Shown here: positions 40,471-59,854 of the stretch, in pieces | Numbering within the stretch: the stretch's first letter is position 1 | Layout of the letters: every line of letters starts with the position of its first letter | Assembly: GCA_037200005.1 (NCBI GenBank) | Contig: JBBCGY010000001.1 | Coordinates: 540,416-604,415, forward strand | Direction: 5' to 3' | From: Alphaproteobacteria bacterium | GTDB taxonomy: Bacteria; Pseudomonadota; Alphaproteobacteria; UBA9219; RFNS01 | DNA: 64,000 nt | Notes under the pieces: generated by a model | Told to the model about the DNA's origin: nothing | Seen by the model: the letters and a program-made list of their open reading frames with translations, nothing else | Database searches by the model: none | Program-made: the position numbers and the translations under genes

Positions 40471-40550
40471 GCATGGTTAACGCGCCTCTGGCCTTCGGCG
40501 GGATGGCGCTTTATAGTGCCGCCTCGCTTCAATCATCAATCAATCCGGCC

Positions 40551-42068
40551 ATGCCCAAAACCGACTATCTCGAAAGAATCCTCAAGGCGAATGTCTATGA
40601 CGTCGCCATCGTCTCGCCGCTTCAGCATGCGCCGGGGCTTTCGGCGCGCATCGGCAACCGCGCGCTGCTCAAGCGCGAGGACATGCAGCCGGTTTTTTCG
40701 TTCAAGCTGCGCGGCTCCTACAACAAGATGTCGCAGCTTTCGCCCGCCGAGCTTAAGCGCGGCGTGATCGCGGCCAGCGCGGGGAATCATGCCCAGGGCG
40801 TGGCGCTCGCGGCGCAAAAGCTGGGCGCGCGGGCGGTGATCGTGATGCCGGTCACGACGCCGGGGATCAAGGTGGCGGCGGTCGCGGCGCGCGGCGCCGA
40901 GATCGTGCTGCATGGCGTGTCCTATGACGAGGCCTATGCCCATGCGCGTCTGCTGGAGAAGAAGCAGAAGCTGACCTTCATCCATCCGTTCGACGATCCC
41001 GACGTGATCGCCGGGAACGGCACCGTCGGCATGGAGCTAATGCAGCAGCATCCCGGCCCGATCCATGCGGTGTTCATCGCCGTCGGCGGCGGCGGATTGA
41101 TCAGCGGCGTCGCCGCCTATCTGAAACAGCTGCGCCCGGAGATCAAGATCATCGGCGTCGAGCCGGTCGACGCGGATTGCATGGCGCGCTCGCTCAAGGC
41201 CGGACGGCGCGTGACGCTGCCGCATGTCGGATTGTTCGCCGACGGAGTGGCGGTCAAGCAACCGGGCGAGGAGACGTTCAAGCTCTGCCGCAAATATGTC
41301 GACGGCATGGTGCTGGCCGATACGGATGCCATATGTGCTGCGATCAAGGATGTGTTCGAGGATACGCGAACCGTGCTGGAGCCTGCGGGAGCCTTGGCGA
41401 TTGCGGGCATGAAGCAATATGCGGCGGCGCATGGGCTGAAGGACAAGACGCTGGTCGCCATCGCCTGCGGCGCGAACATGAATTTCGACCGGCTGCGCTT
41501 CGTCGCCGAACGGGCGGAGCTTGGCGAGCGGCGCGAGGCGGTTTTCGCCGCGACGATCCCGGAAAAGCCTGGCAGCTTCAAGCATTTCTGCGAGCTTCTC
41601 GGCCAGCGTCAGATTACCGAGTTCAATTACCGCTATGCCGACAACAAGCAGGCGCATGTCTTCGCCGGGGTGGCGGTGCGCCAGGCCGGAGAGGGTGCCG
41701 CGCTCATGAAGACGCTGGAGCGCCATGGCATCAAGACGCTCGACCTGTCCGGCAACGAGATGGCGAAGCTGCATATCCGGCATCTGGTTGGCGGCCATGC
41801 GCCGCAGGCGAAGAATGAGCGCATCTATCGCTTTGAATTCCCCGAGCGTCCCGGCGCGCTGCTCAAATTTTTGTCGGCGATGGGCGGCAAGTGGAATATC
41901 AGCCTGTTCCATTACCGCAATCACGGCGCGGATTACGGCCGCGTGCTGGTCGGCATCCAGGTTCCGCCCGGCGACGATAAGCCGTTCCAGGCATTCCTCA
42001 AGAAAACCGGCTACCCCTATACCGAGGAAAGCGGCAACCCGGCCTATAAATTATTCCTGGGCGCTTAA
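40551..42068 (+). CDS. ilvA: Threonine ammonia-lyase, biosynthetic
   Basis: A PLP enzyme that deaminates threonine to 2-oxobutanoate, the first committed step to isoleucine. The 505-residue form has the catalytic domain with the PLP lysine in FSFKLRGSYNK (about 54-64), the glycine loop VGGGGLISG, and two C-terminal ACT-like domains for isoleucine feedback (from about residue 330). The ATG at 40551 is chosen because MPKTDYLERIL is a normal N-terminus; a frame from 40473 adds unrelated residues. Confidence 0.95.
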   Translation: MPKTDYLERILKANVYDVAIVSPLQHAPGLSARIGNRALLKREDMQPVFSFKLRGSYNKMSQLSPAELKRGVIAASAGNHAQGVALAAQKLGARAVIVMPVTTPGIKVAAVAARGAEIVLHGVSYDEAYAHARLLEKKQKLTFIHPFDDPDVIAGNGTVGMELMQQHPGPIHAVFIAVGGGGLISGVAAYLKQLRPEIKIIGVEPVDADCMARSLKAGRRVTLPHVGLFADGVAVKQPGEETFKLCRKYVDGMVLADTDAICAAIKDVFEDTRTVLEPAGALAIAGMKQYAAAHGLKDKTLVAIACGANMNFDRLRFVAERAELGERREAVFAATIPEKPGSFKHFCELLGQRQITEFNYRYADNKQAHVFAGVAVRQAGEGAALMKTLERHGIKTLDLSGNEMAKLHIRHLVGGHAPQAKNERIYRFEFPERPGALLKFLSAMGGKWNISLFHYRNHGADYGRVLVGIQVPPGDDKPFQAFLKKTGYPYTEESGNPAYKLFLGA

Positions 42069-42093
42069 AATCGCTATTTAAATTAAAATTTTC

Positions 42094-42122
42094 TTGACTT
42101 GGATTGCGCGTCTCCATATATT
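42094..42122 (+). promoter_or_regulatory. Sigma-70 promoter of the PadR operon
   Basis: TTGACT (42094-42099), exactly 17 bases, and TATATT (42117-42122). This is the best promoter-like sequence in the window. Its -10 end overlaps the palindrome that begins at 42121. Confidence 0.65.
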
Positions 42123-42144
42123 CTATTTTGTCGAGGAAATAGAA
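42121..42144. promoter_or_regulatory. Perfect inverted repeat, candidate PadR operator
   Basis: TTCTATTT (42121-42128), 8 bases, AAATAGAA (42137-42144): a perfect 8-bp inverted repeat with centre-to-centre symmetry over 24 bases. It starts inside the -10 element and ends 12 bases before the padR start, so a bound dimer would block the promoter. PadR proteins typically repress their own operon at such sites. Confidence 0.6.
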
Positions 42145-42155
42145 AGCGGGTGCTC

Positions 42156-42500
42156 ATGGGCTATGATTCCATCGGTGAACTTGAAATGATGATTATGCTG
42201 GCGGTATTGCGTCTCGGTACGAACGCTTACGGCATAACCATCCGCGATGAGCTTGCTAAGCGTGGTGGACGCAGTCGCTCATTCGGCACGATATATACAA
42301 CTCTTGACCGTCTTTCTGAGAAGGGTTTCGTGACCTCTCGCTTAGGCGATCCCACTGCCGAGCGTGGTGGGCGAGCCAAAAAGTTTTTTGAACTCACTAC
42401 AAAGGGACGTATCACACTCGAAGCAACAGTCAATTCTAGGCGCTCCCTAGAGAACGGTCTGGGCTTCAAAAACCCCGCTCTTCATGGAGCCGCACAATGA
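42156..42500 (+). CDS. PadR-family transcriptional regulator
   Basis: A 114-residue winged-helix repressor. The PadR core is seen in the N-terminal helix GELEMMIMLAVLRLG, AYGITIRDELAKR, then the recognition helix and wing FGTIYTTLDRLSEKGFVTSRLG and KKFFELTTKGR. PadR proteins sense small molecules or stress and usually control an adjacent membrane or transporter gene. The start ATG at 42156 could instead be the GTG at 42150. It overlaps the next gene as ATGA. Confidence 0.88.
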   Translation: MGYDSIGELEMMIMLAVLRLGTNAYGITIRDELAKRGGRSRSFGTIYTTLDRLSEKGFVTSRLGDPTAERGGRAKKFFELTTKGRITLEATVNSRRSLENGLGFKNPALHGAAQ

Positions 42501-43024
42501 ATAACAAACATAAGGGAATGCACCTTATTAGTGTTGAGCTTCAGAAGCTATCTTTAGTTCTTGAAGGAAGTGAAGCTTTAGTTAAACAACTCAAAGAAGA
42601 TGTAACTGCATGGAGGCCTGATGCAGGGCGAGGACCTACGCTTATATTGCGGTGGAAATTATTGAAAACAGCGGCCATAGTTAGCGGACAAAAATCATAC
42701 ATCAAGGTACGTCTATCACAAATAAAAAATAGGGTTCACCATTATGAAAGAAAAGAGCTTGATTACAGATCAAGCCACTTGCCACCAGTAGGTATACAAA
42801 AAATACTTTCCATTTTAGTGGAAGCCCAATACAGAGACGGCCTCTTGGGGGATTTAGATGAATCTTTCCATAGAACAGCCATTCGATTTGGCGGAGAGTT
42901 TGCCAGGAAGCAATACTGCATCGATGCAGTTTTGTCACTTCCTCCGCTCATGGGAAGTCGGATTGCAAAGCTGTTCAGCCTGCTTGCCCTAATGGATTTC
43001 CTGCGAAGGAAATTAGGTTTCTAA
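42497..43024 (+). CDS. PadR-operon partner protein, unknown
   Basis: A 175-residue protein coupled to padR by an ATGA overlap. The first half is coiled-coil-like (VELQKLSLVLEGSEALVKQ). The second half, LLGDLDESFHRTAIRFGGEFARKQYCIDAVLS, resembles in pattern the GDL(D/E)E-F-x-RR-x-G-x-x-x-A-R-x-x-Y segment found before ABC-permease domains and in PadR-linked membrane proteins; this is from memory. No transmembrane helix is strong. GC content is clearly lower than its surroundings, suggesting transfer. Confidence 0.7.
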   Translation: MNNKHKGMHLISVELQKLSLVLEGSEALVKQLKEDVTAWRPDAGRGPTLILRWKLLKTAAIVSGQKSYIKVRLSQIKNRVHHYERKELDYRSSHLPPVGIQKILSILVEAQYRDGLLGDLDESFHRTAIRFGGEFARKQYCIDAVLSLPPLMGSRIAKLFSLLALMDFLRRKLGF

Positions 43025-43028
43025 CCGC

Positions 43029-44747
43029 TTATATCTCCGCATATACATGCGTCTCGGCTTTCGCGCCGGGATGCGTGACCGCGCCCTTTTCGGCGTCGCC
43101 GACCTGCTGCGCGTATTTCCACAGCGCGCCCGACTGGAAATCATGCTGGCGCGGTTTCCATGCTTTGCGCCGCGCTTCAAGCTCGGCGTCGGAAAGCTCG
43201 ACATTCAAAATTCCTGCATCGGCGTCGAGGACGATGATGTCGCCGTCTTTCAATAGCGCGATAGGCCCGCCTACCGCCGCTTCCGGCCCCACATGGCCGA
43301 CGCAGAAGCCGCGCGTCGCGCCGGAAAAGCGCCCGTCGGTGATGAGGGCGATTTGGTCGCCCGCGCCCTGGCCATAGAGCGCGGCGGTGGTCGAGAGCAT
43401 CTCGCGCATCCCCGGCCCGCCGCGCGGGCCTTCATAGCGGATCACCAGCACTTCGCCGGGCTTATAGCCGCGCTCGGTCACGGCCTTGAATGCGTCTTCC
43501 TCGCAGTCGAAGCAGCGGGCGGGGCCCTTGAACCGCAAATTCTTCATGCCCGCGACTTTCACGATCGCGCCCTGCGGCGCGAGATTGCCGCGCAGCCCGA
43601 CCACGCCGCCCGTGGGCGACAAGGGTTTCGTGCATGGGCGGATCACGTCCTGGTCTTCCGGGAATTTCACGTCGCGCAGATTCTCGGCGATGGTCTTGCC
43701 CGTGACCGTGATGCAATCGCCATGCAGATAGCCGCCGTCGAGCAGCGCCTTCATCAGCACCGGCACGCCGCCGATCTCGAACATGTCCTTGGCGACATAT
43801 TTTCCGGCGGGCTTGAGGTCGGCGAGATAGGGCGTGCGGCGGAACACGGCGGCGACGTCGTGCAGATCGAACTCGATGCCCACTTCATGCGCCATCGCGG
43901 GCAGATGCAGCGCGGCGTTGGTCGATCCGCCCGACGCGGCGACGACGACGGCGGCATTCTCGAGCGCCTGCCGCGTGACGATCTGGCGCGGGCGCAGATT
44001 GAGCTTCATCAAATTCATCACCGCTTCGCCCGATTTCACCGCGTAATGATCGCGCGCGACATCCGGCGCCGGCGCGCCCGCCGAACCGGGCAGCGCGAGG
44101 CCGATGGCTTCGGAGACGCAGGCCATGGTGTTGGCGGTGAATTGCCCGCCGCAGCTTCCGGCGCTCGGGCAGGCGACGCATTCGAGTTCGTGCAGATCAT
44201 GGTCCGACATTTTTCCGGCGGCATGGCTGCCGACGGCCTCGAACACGTCCTGCACCGTCACGTCGCGGCCTTTGAACTTACCCGGCAGGATCGAGCCGCC
44301 ATACATGAAGACGCTCGGCACGTCGAGCCGCAGCATTGCCATCATCATTCCCGGCAGGCTCTTGTCGCAGCCCGCGATGCCGACCAGCGCGTCATAGCAA
44401 TGGCCGCGCATGGTCAGCTCGATGGAATCGACGATGACCTCACGGCTGGCGAGCGAGGATTTCATCCCCTGATGCCCCATCGCGATGCCGTCGGTCACGG
44501 TGATGGTGGTGAATTCGCGCGGCGTGCCGCCCGCGTCCTTCACGCCCTTTTTGGCCGACTGCGCCTGGCGCGACAGTGCGATGTTACAGGGTGCGGCCTC
44601 GTTCCAGCAGGTCGCGACGCCGACGAAGGGTTTGGCGATATCCTCTTCCGTCATGCCCATCGCATGATAATAGGAACGATGCGGCGCGCGCTCCGGTCCG
44701 ACCGAGACGTGGCGCGAGGGCAGGCGGGATTTGTCGAATGTCGTCAT
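43029..44747 (-). CDS. ilvD: Dihydroxy-acid dehydratase
   Basis: Dehydrates dihydroxy acids to oxo acids in valine, isoleucine and leucine synthesis, using an iron-sulphur cluster. The 572-residue protein has the cluster cysteines in [13 protein letters not shown] (about 45-57), [14 protein letters not shown], and [20 protein letters not shown]. The C-terminal half has [19 protein letters not shown]. The start ATG at 44747 lacks a clear Shine-Dalgarno site. It lies on the minus strand, converging on the PadR operon. Confidence 0.95.
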
Positions 44748-44839
44748 GGGAGGATTTTAACCATAATCTGCGGTTGCAAGCGGAGAAGGGAAAGGCATAG
44801 AACGAGATATTGATATCGCAATTTGAAAGGATTTTGACA

Positions 44840-45112
44840 ATGACGGAAGCAGAAAACAAGGAACGCACCCGCAGACTGATCCAACATGTCAGCGATGTAA
44901 TCGTGAGCAGAGGCCCGGAACATCCGGTTGTCGTCAAAACCCTCCAGCGTTTGCGCGATCTTGAAGCTCATGCCCCCACCAATACCCTCAGGCAGCTTCC
45001 CGAGGAATATGCGTTCGTTAAATTTCTCATGACGAATCGACAGCCCGGAATGCCTGCGGCGATACGCGTCGCGGCTTTGCAGATCATAGCGGCTACTCAT
45101 ACGCCGCGTTAA
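44840..45112 (+). CDS. Small helix-rich protein of unknown function
   Basis: A 90-residue protein starting ATG at 44840, with GAAAGG nine bases upstream. It begins MTEAENKERTRRLIQHVSDV and consists of amphipathic helices with no membrane segment or signal peptide. It lies between the ilvD start and the ilv promoter; a motif TTAACCATAAT is found 73 bases upstream. It could be a regulator or a toxin-antitoxin remnant, but nothing supports either. Confidence 0.6.
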   Translation: MTEAENKERTRRLIQHVSDVIVSRGPEHPVVVKTLQRLRDLEAHAPTNTLRQLPEEYAFVKFLMTNRQPGMPAAIRVAALQIIAATHTPR

Positions 45113-45156
45113 TAAACGCTGATTCAGGATAAAAAGCTTAACTTCTTACCAAACAC

Positions 45157-45185
45157 TTGCGGGTTGCGGGAGCGCGCCTTATAGT
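45157..45185 (+). promoter_or_regulatory. Sigma-70 promoter of the ilv operon
   Basis: TTGCGG (45157-45162), a 17-base spacer, and TATAGT (45180-45185). Transcription would begin near 45192, leaving a leader of about 35 bases before the GTG at 45226, too short for a classical leader-peptide attenuator. Confidence 0.55.
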
Positions 45186-45225
45186 CTACGCCCCTGTGGA
45201 TAAATACCAAAACAAGGGCAAGCAA

Positions 45226-47001
45226 GTGGCGGAGCAGTTACAGTCAGAACAAATATTAACCGGCGCGCAGATCGTCATCCAGGCCTTGAAGGATCAGGGC
45301 GTGGATGTGATTTTCGGCTACCCGGGCGGCGCCGTATTGCCGATTTACGACGCGCTGTTTCAGTCGGAAGGCATCCGCCATGTGCTGGTGCGGCACGAGC
45401 AGGGCGCGGTTCATGCCGCCGAGGGCTATGCGCGCTCATCCGGCAAAGTCGGCGTGGTGCTGGTGACGTCAGGGCCCGGCGCGACCAATGCCGTCACCGG
45501 CCTCACCGACGCGCTGATGGACAGTATCCCCATCGTCTGCCTCACCGGGCAGGTGGCGACGCATCTGATCGGCAACGACGCTTTTCAGGAATGCGATACG
45601 GTCGGCATCACCCGCCCCTGCACCAAGCATAATTATCTGGTCAAGGATGCCGCCGTTCTCGCCGGCGTGCTTCACGAGGCTTTCTCCATCGCGCGCGGCG
45701 GCAGGCCGGGGCCGGTATTGGTCGATATTCCCAAGGATGTCCAGTTCGCGCAGGCCGTCTATACCCCGCCGCCGAAAAAGCCCGCTTACGGCGCGCGCAA
45801 ATCTTTAGATAAAAACGCCATCGAAAAAGCCGTGGCGCTGATGGCCGCGGCCGAGCGTCCGGTATTTTATACCGGCGGCGGCGTCATCAATGCGGGCCCG
45901 CGCGCCGCGGAATTGCTGGCGGAATTCGTGCATCTCACCGGCTTCCCTTGTACCAGCACGCTGATGGGGCTGGGCGCTTTCCCCATGAGCGATCCGCAAT
46001 TCCTCGGCATGCTGGGAATGCACGGAACTTACGAAGCCAATCTCGCGATGCATGGCTGCGACGTGATGGTCAATATCGGCGCGCGCTTCGACGATCGCAT
46101 CACCGGCAAAATCAGCGAATTTTCCCCAGGCTCGAAGAAAATCCACGTCGATATTGATCCGAGCTCGATCAACAAGAGCGTGCGCGTCGATCTGCCGATC
46201 GTCGGCCATGCCGAGGACGTGCTGGAGGCGATGCTGAAAGAGTGGCGCGGCAAGGGTTATCAGCCGCGCGCGGCGGGCCTTAAGAAATGGTGGGAGCAGA
46301 TCAATCTGTGGCGCAAGCGGGATTGCCTGCGCTACAAAGCCGACGACAAGATCATCAAGCCGCAATACGCGCTCGAACGGCTGCGCGAACTGACCAAGGG
46401 CCGCCGCACGATCATCAGCACCGAAGTCGGCCAGCACCAGATGTGGGCGGCGCAGTTCCTGCGTTTTGAAAAGCCGAACCATTGGCTGACGTCGGGCGGC
46501 CTCGGCACCATGGGCTATGGCCTGCCCGCCGCCATCGGCGCGCAGATGGCGAATCCGGACGCGCTGGTCGTCGATGTCGCGGGGGAAGCCTCGATCCTGA
46601 TGAATATCCAGGAAATGTCCACGGCGGTGCAGTATAAGCTGCCGGTCAAGGTGTTCATCCTCAATAACCAATGGATGGGCATGGTCCGCCAGTGGCAGGA
46701 ATTGATCCATGGCGGGCGCTATTCGCATTCCTATACCGAGGCGCTGCCCGATTTCGTCAAGCTGGCCGAGGCTTTCGGCGGCGCGGGCTTCCGTGCCTCG
46801 AAACCGGGAGATGTGGACGGCGTGATCGCGGAGATGCTAAAGGTCAATGACCGGCCCTGCATCGTCGATGTCATGGTCGATCCCAAGGAAAATTGTTTCC
46901 CGATGATTCCGGGCGGCAAGGCGCACAACCAGATGATCATGGGCGACGAAACCGCCAGCCCCGCCGAAGCCACCCCCGAAGAGGGCATGGTTCTGGTTTG
47001 A
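45226..47001 (+). CDS. ilvB: Acetolactate synthase large subunit
   Basis: A thiamine-diphosphate enzyme that condenses pyruvate with pyruvate or 2-oxobutanoate, the first shared step of Val/Ile synthesis. The 591-residue protein has FGYPGGAVLPIYDALF with the catalytic glutamate in RHEQGAVHAAEGYAR, the central FAD-binding domain and the ThDP motif VDVAGEASILMNIQEM near residue 450. The start is GTG at 45226; a TTG at 45157 lies in the -35 element and is not translated. This family is called ilvB, ilvI or ilvG in different species. Confidence 0.94.
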   Translation: MAEQLQSEQILTGAQIVIQALKDQGVDVIFGYPGGAVLPIYDALFQSEGIRHVLVRHEQGAVHAAEGYARSSGKVGVVLVTSGPGATNAVTGLTDALMDSIPIVCLTGQVATHLIGNDAFQECDTVGITRPCTKHNYLVKDAAVLAGVLHEAFSIARGGRPGPVLVDIPKDVQFAQAVYTPPPKKPAYGARKSLDKNAIEKAVALMAAAERPVFYTGGGVINAGPRAAELLAEFVHLTGFPCTSTLMGLGAFPMSDPQFLGMLGMHGTYEANLAMHGCDVMVNIGARFDDRITGKISEFSPGSKKIHVDIDPSSINKSVRVDLPIVGHAEDVLEAMLKEWRGKGYQPRAAGLKKWWEQINLWRKRDCLRYKADDKIIKPQYALERLRELTKGRRTIISTEVGQHQMWAAQFLRFEKPNHWLTSGGLGTMGYGLPAAIGAQMANPDALVVDVAGEASILMNIQEMSTAVQYKLPVKVFILNNQWMGMVRQWQELIHGGRYSHSYTEALPDFVKLAEAFGGAGFRASKPGDVDGVIAEMLKVNDRPCIVDVMVDPKENCFPMIPGGKAHNQMIMGDETASPAEATPEEGMVLV

Positions 47002-59767: not shown

Positions 59768-59854
59768 TGGTGCCCAGAAGAAGACTCGAACTTCCACGAC
59801 ATTTCTGCCACAGGTACCTGAAACCTGCGCGTCTACCAATTCCGCCATCTGGGC
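59768..59854 (-). tRNA. tRNA-Leu (anticodon CAG)
   Basis: An 87-base tRNA on the minus strand with an encoded CCA. The acceptor stem is GCCCAGA/TCTGGGC, the anticodon stem-loop is CAGGT-TTCAGGT-ACCTG with anticodon CAG, a class II long variable arm follows, and the T loop is GTTCGAGTC. It reads CUG. Confidence 0.95.

Follow-up and report, generated by a model that had tools for sequence, protein, structure and literature searches.

The stretch of DNA analysed here (the window) covers 64,000 nucleotides of an alphaproteobacterial contig and contains, between genes that we named ilvA and ilvD by reading their translations (ilvD also from plasmid relatives), a padR gene coupled to a small partner gene by a 4-nt overlap (ATGA). 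The nearest plasmid relatives of ilvD likewise suggest that the genome belongs to Alphaproteobacteria. The next gene after the partner is ilvD, on the opposite strand, and no ADOP/FtsX permease lies behind padR (Table 1). The first-pass annotation had described this locus as a compact autoregulated unit with a near-consensus promoter, a palindrome over it, and padR together with a coupled, low-GC partner gene between ilvA and ilvD. The promoter motifs, the open reading frames, their overlap and the GC contents of padR (0.513) and the partner (0.417) agree with this description, and both the sequence and the recurrence of the layout elsewhere are in line with a compact unit carrying a repressor-type palindrome on its own promoter. 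An Rfam search of positions 41000-45300 gave no match, and the single tRNA of the window lies at 59768-59854.

Table 1. Features of the padR locus, with positions counted in the window.
Feature	Position	Strand	Remark
ilvA	40473-42068	+	flanks the padR pair
Predicted sigma-70-like promoter, TTGACT-17-TATATT	42094-42122	+	-35 at 42094-42099, -10 at 42117-42122; 10/12 consensus
Inverted repeat TTCTATTT-N8-AAATAGAA, putative PadR operator	42121-42144	.	inner half-sites ATTT-N8-AAAT
padR, 114-aa winged-helix repressor	42156-42500	+	PF03551
GGAG, Shine-Dalgarno-like, 7 nt 5' of the partner start	42486-42489	+	read from the sequence
Partner gene, 175 aa, all-helical prediction	42497-43024	+	
Partner residues 4-93, predicted long helical hairpin, variable among relatives	42506-42775	+	AlphaFold2, alignments
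Partner residues 97-152, perm_prefix_2 domain	42785-42952	+	NF038404
Hydrophobic C-terminal tail of the partner, net-basic (+4 over the final 30 residues), which may form a membrane-surface helix	42932-43021	+	
ilvD	43029-44747	-	flanks the padR pair

The repeat consists of the arms TTCTATTT (42121-42128) and AAATAGAA (42137-42144) around the centre TGTCGAGG. It had been reported as a perfect inverted repeat of 24 bases starting in the -10 element; it does begin at the last two bases of the -10 hexamer and does span 24 nt, whereas exact pairing is confined to two arms of 8 bp (16 bases) around an 8-nt centre of partial palindromic symmetry. With arms of 8 and 8, the palindrome is thus weaker than an exact one of 24 bases. 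Dinucleotide shuffling gave P values of 0.006 for the last 60 nt before padR (1,500 shuffles) and 0.022 for the last 80 nt (1,000 shuffles). The window as a whole holds 26 repeats with arms of at least 8 and spacers of at most 12 (0.024 per 60 nt), among which the padR repeat is the sole AT-rich one (29% GC). Allowing up to three mismatches, the padR site is the sole occurrence of the pattern in the genome (the reversed pattern, used as a control, occurs twice per strand), and a single site of this kind suggests mainly a local switch. Half-sites of the form ATGT/ACAT with spacers of 8-10 nt, of which degenerate forms exist, are described in the available part of one study (PMC3506622), and self-binding half-sites of the form TACT-N11/12-AGTA in that of another (PMC5050560). 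The ATTT-N8-AAAT of the window keeps the spacing of the ATGT/ACAT type with a symmetric change of one base.

The window PadR matches PF03551 with 50 bits (cut-off 27, E 3e-13), which identifies it as a winged helix-turn-helix protein, and it also matches TIGR03433 (padR_acidobact) below the cut-off (9.3e-9). It resembles LmrR, cdPadR1 and bcPadR1, as far as the available descriptions of these proteins go, in its length of about 110 aa, the repeat on its own promoter and the half-site spacing of 8; it differs from them in the ATTT/AAAT half-site, the lack of tryptophan and the coupled prefix-2 partner. A central tryptophan in the C-terminal helix is given as a feature of the PadR-s2, LmrR type in the accessible text of PMC3506622, and the absence of any tryptophan from the window protein argues against a drug pocket of the LmrR type. 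PADLOC returned no match for the partner and, for PadR, a weak match to a CARF-type model (0.0021) and nothing else. The genome has one other PadR match, an 89-aa open reading frame (L049:1468-1737) between reading frames that we read as birA-like and nuoN-like, with no prefix-2 partner visible beside it.

The function of the partner had been left blank by the first-pass annotation, and the assignment can now be improved to that of a carrier of a PadR-associated permease prefix domain, at a score that for the window protein straddles the curated cut-off. Residues 97-152 of 175 match the NCBIfam model NF038404 (perm_prefix_2) with E 1.7e-8 and 34.6 bits, and with 36.6 bits in a six-frame search, against a curated cut-off of 35. 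Relatives with the same layout score 40.3 (L007) and 39.0 bits (L036), the others 20.1-31.1. The domain therefore lies at the C-terminal side of a small protein, not at the N-terminus of a transporter, and an FtsX/MacB match is absent. The partner has no Pfam match above noise, and its profile gave no match to PDB chain sequences. The structure prediction proposed earlier did yield an all-helical model of modest confidence, with helices at residues 4-38, 45-93, 98-107, 110-131 and 133-173 (AlphaFold2 with five sequences; pLDDT 70, pTM 0.40), whereas no significant fold match came with it: none of the 173 matches at E <=10 reached 0.001, and the top match (Z 9.2, rmsd 2.6, 87 aligned) covers the helical hairpin only. 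The prefix part modelled alone with nine sequences reached pLDDT 79.5 and pTM 0.60, and its fold search gave a best E of 5.8 and a best Z of 3.4 (rmsd 3.8, 60 aligned). HAAS domains are not listed in these fold searches, an absence that excludes nothing. The Kyte-Doolittle value of the hydrophobic tail stays at or below 1.39 in every 19-residue stretch, which makes a membrane-surface helix likelier than a transmembrane one. Judged from its sequence, the partner represents a PadR-linked domain that occurs here without a transporter.

Searches with NF038404 found the domain in 3 of 289 genomes of the class, 4 of 398 of the phylum and 1 of 229 of the class of genome G428. A profile built from the first members matched 6 of 385 class genomes (E <=1e-3), and a second profile 4 of 398 genomes of the phylum. 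Because these draws overlap, they amount to nine distinct genomes (G000, G090, G268, G345, G766, G428, G347, G125 and G622), seven of which, all Pseudomonadota, have an NF038404 match at E <=0.001. A PadR open reading frame lies directly upstream in six of the seven (the window, L003, L004, L005, L007 and L012). The seventh protein (L006 in G347, 3.4e-11) lies about 256 nt from the end of its contig, with no PadR in that interval, and was counted as not assessable for PadR linkage. We dropped two candidates: L013 in G125 (profile 1.2e-5) has no NF038404 match at E <=1 and no PadR reading frame in the 1.2 kb upstream, and L053 in G622 (7.9e-4) is a coiled-coil reading frame beside chemotaxis-like ones that matched outside the prefix domain.

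Five of the six PadR-linked proteins (the window, L003, L004, L007 and L012) are of a standalone type, 163-195 aa long with the domain C-terminal; in L005 it is N-terminal on a 243-aa protein with weak MotA-like similarity. The standalone layout thus occurs in the window, in four other genomes of the class and on one IMG/VR contig (L036), with differing neighbours, and the recurrence of the padR-partner pair that the first-pass annotation had made a test of its reading is borne out. Over the six PadR-linked loci and L036, padR and the partner are spaced by -4, -4, -4, -13, -22, +17 and +42 nt. The N-terminal regions of the relatives give no convincing mutual alignment, and that of L004 has zinc-ribbon-like matches below cut-offs. 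The GC content of the pair is below that of its flanks (2 kb or the available part) in the window, L036, L012 and L004, and that of the partner alone in L007; in L003 and L005 it is not. With tblastn, no close relatives of the partner were found in plasmids or phages and none were confirmed in viral or genome contigs; the L007 partner as query gave nothing confirmed in genome contigs and nothing in plasmids, and the L006 reading frame nothing in plasmids.

Two of these loci have conspicuous surroundings. In G268 (L032:3904-5483), direct repeats flank the padR pair (146 alignment columns at 86% and 60 nt at 93%), and one copy of the 146-column repeat is the 3' end of an acyl-CoA dehydrogenase-like reading frame; such repeats suggest integration or tandem duplication. 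In G345 (L031:7783-8691), a CAP12/Pycsar TIR-domain gene (PF10137, 7.5e-35) is encoded directly upstream of the pair.

Several PadR relatives on viral contigs and plasmids are also followed by prefix-2 proteins. A search of IMG/VR with the window PadR gave one relative, and an alignment of PadR sequences gave two loci, of which one lies on the contig already hit; both viral-contig relatives precede a prefix-2-type protein. In L036, PadR overlaps by 4 nt a gene for a 174-aa protein with the prefix-2 domain at residues 100-157 (7.2e-10), and an integrase-like reading frame (by reading) lies about 1.5 kb from the pair. In L046, the protein behind PadR has hydrophobic segments and an N-terminus that resembles prefix-2, the latter identified by alignment only. 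PadR as query had no match in phages. Among eight plasmid records with a PadR match, five continue with prefix-2 ADOP/FtsX permeases: L037 (split into two reading frames), L039, L040, L042 (weak prefix match, 0.0038) and L043, a count that excludes L038, known from its reading-frame listing alone. In plasmid L041, an ADOP/FtsX permease without a prefix match lies behind PadR. A linear Nostoc plasmid (L044:237-4051) with an annotated protelomerase-family gene encodes two PadR-like genes, each with small hypothetical proteins; the two of these that were scanned have no prefix-2 match. Overall, the PadR-partner unit is a real, recurring and probably mobile dyad.

Palindromes precede padR in several of the relatives. 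In the last 60 nt, L003 has arms of 10 (P 0.014), L004 arms of 10 (P 0.0007) and L012 arms of 14 (P 0.0007), and no significant repeat was found in L007 (arms 4, P 0.66) or L005 (arms 5, P 0.41). In the last 80 nt, L036 has arms of 6 (P 0.12), the plasmid loci give P 0.07-0.76, and L046 has arms of 7 (P 0.04) in a stretch that ends 3 nt short of the ATG at 2489. Significant repeats are therefore present in four of the six standalone members (the window, L003, L004 and L012) and lacking in L007 and L036, so the palindrome is not universal. The predicted -10 element touches or lies inside the repeat in three of the four (the window, L004 and L012), and no promoter was predicted in L003. For L007, a promoter is predicted 67-94 nt ahead of padR, and no more than a weak 5-bp repeat covers its -10. 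Each of the four significant loci has a different repeat sequence, and hence there is no cross-relative footprint for PadR binding. Upstream of padR, L005 (a genome) and L036 (a viral contig) have the palindrome-like TCTACATTGTAG in common.

The third-position GC content of padR (0.478) and the partner (0.369) is far from that of ilvA (0.806), ilvD (0.820) and ilvB (0.776). In G003, a relative from the same family, ilvA comes immediately after ilvD on the same strand, and the pair is absent between them. Together, the low third-position GC and this adjacency point to a horizontal gain, and on these grounds the pair was probably acquired laterally. Of the 59 genomes in a set of relatives, only the one studied here gave a match to the partner, and it is likewise the only one among 33 genomes of the order with a prefix-2 family match; an ilvD-like match (E <=1e-30) is present in 13 of the 33, own genome included. 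In the window, ilvA is convergent with ilvD and thus inverted relative to G003, a rearrangement with the pair at its junction. Around the window pair, a search for direct repeats gave low-identity alignments only, none of them convincing. We also considered a functional tie of the pair to the ilv genes; it is unsupported, given the G003 order without the pair and the foreign composition of the latter.

Two kinds of known systems are comparable. PadR operons with prefix-2 ADOP/FtsX permeases (NF038404, TIGR03434) likewise have PadR directly upstream and the prefix-2 domain on the second protein. Those of the Fibrella and Spirosoma oryzicola plasmids (L039, L040) encode PadR proteins 41-42% identical to the window PadR over the match; there, however, the domain is N-terminal on permeases of 875-878 aa, whereas in the window it is C-terminal on 175 aa without a permease. 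The second kind is the HAAS-PadR dyad, for example lltR-lmo0600 of Listeria, in which a standalone PadR winged-helix protein also accompanies an all-helical-domain protein whose other parts vary. In the available portion of Ravi et al. 2024 (PMC11237479), HAAS domains coupled to standalone PadR are proposed to relay signals from fused sensors, the dyads are proposed to replace kinase-based two-component systems, and FtsX/MacB fusions are listed. In Listeria, the operon of the PadR protein LltR, which also encodes a DUF1700 protein, rises more than 100-fold in expression when LltR is lost, according to the accessible text of PMC6624303. The window likewise has a standalone PadR coupled to a candidate signalling-domain gene by the 4-nt overlap, and self-repression would be a further likeness. 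On the other hand, HAAS domains are mostly N-terminal to membrane sensors in what is available of PMC11237479, and the window prefix domain is C-terminal; the HAAS type is a helical domain with a GxP motif, neither the partner nor its relatives had a Pfam match above noise, and the helical model had no significant fold match. Within the PMC papers searched, we found nothing that pairs PadR with a permease prefix domain, a duplicated orphan permease or an acidobacterial FtsX-like permease, and no paper on the standalone PadR-prefix layout or on PadR together with an ATGT/ACAT palindrome.

We favour the interpretation, with a probability of roughly 0.55, that the locus is a self-contained and horizontally gained regulatory dyad, in which an autorepressing PadR is set by its partner in the manner of HAAS-PadR systems. 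By analogy with LltR and these systems, PadR would repress its own promoter through the repeat, which makes autoregulation plausible, and the prefix domain would be the part that addresses PadR. PadR dimers would occupy the repeat and so silence the operon that encodes them, a negative feedback. The prefix domain may dock on PadR, probably at the membrane surface by way of the hydrophobic basic tail, and the variable N-terminal part, in the window a predicted helical hairpin, may sense or oligomerise. A change in this part would then alter the hold of PadR on DNA and raise both proteins together. In the permease-bearing arrangement, an ADOP/FtsX permease would occupy the sensor position that a soluble or peripheral region takes in the window.

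That the repeat arose by chance or serves another regulator seems improbable to us: the modest P values of 0.006-0.022 and the two standalone members without a significant repeat leave room for it, but significant repeats with arms of 8-14 bp occupy the same place in the other four, and the window repeat is unique in its genome. Granting the operator, the locus could still be a simple repressor-effector operon, in which PadR itself senses a ligand and the partner is an effector, for instance a membrane-surface stress protein, that sends no signal to PadR. Small molecules are often the signals of those PadR proteins that have been studied, and the hydrophobic and basic tail of the partner would suit an effector at the membrane surface. 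In the available part of PMC6624303, the Listeria genes downstream of lltR were in fact examined as effector genes. Nevertheless, we regard this alternative as rather unlikely, since the window PadR has no tryptophan and the prefix domain accompanies PadR across permeases, hydrophobic multi-segment proteins and helical or zinc-ribbon-like regions; that the domain and the regulator stay the same while the other parts change suggests contact between the two.

The foreign composition of the pair could also fit a degenerate remnant of a PadR-permease operon that lost its permease, as could the lack of a predicted terminator on the strand of the pair, the end of the partner 4 nt from the ilvD stop and the split prefix-2/FtsX gene on a Spirosoma plasmid. 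This is very improbable, however: in a truncated permease the domain would be N-terminal, but here it is C-terminal in an intact reading frame with about 95 residues ahead of it; five other loci have the layout in intact form, and the promoter and overlap are intact as well. A role in conflict, as an accessory module of mobile elements (a defence-linked switch or a toxin-antitoxin-like pair), would account for the sporadic distribution (6 of 385 class genomes, one of them later dropped), the copy near an integrase-like reading frame on the IMG/VR contig, the TIR-domain neighbour in G345 and the flanking repeats in G268. We give it little credence, because PADLOC was blank apart from the weak CARF-type match, the window neighbours are ilv genes and not defence genes, and a defence-type neighbour occurs in only one of the scanned relatives.

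A broader and more tentative proposal, to which we would give somewhat less than even odds, is that permease prefix domain 2 serves as a portable module for docking to PadR, which bacteria and mobile elements detach from transporters and fuse behind exchangeable cytosolic sensors. It would define a two-protein, kinase-free signalling family that spread horizontally, with a private operator for each copy. The 175-aa version, free of the permease of about 900 aa, would make the contact between PadR and the prefix domain directly testable in vitro, and would help to decide if such dyads can generally take the place of two-component signalling based on kinases.
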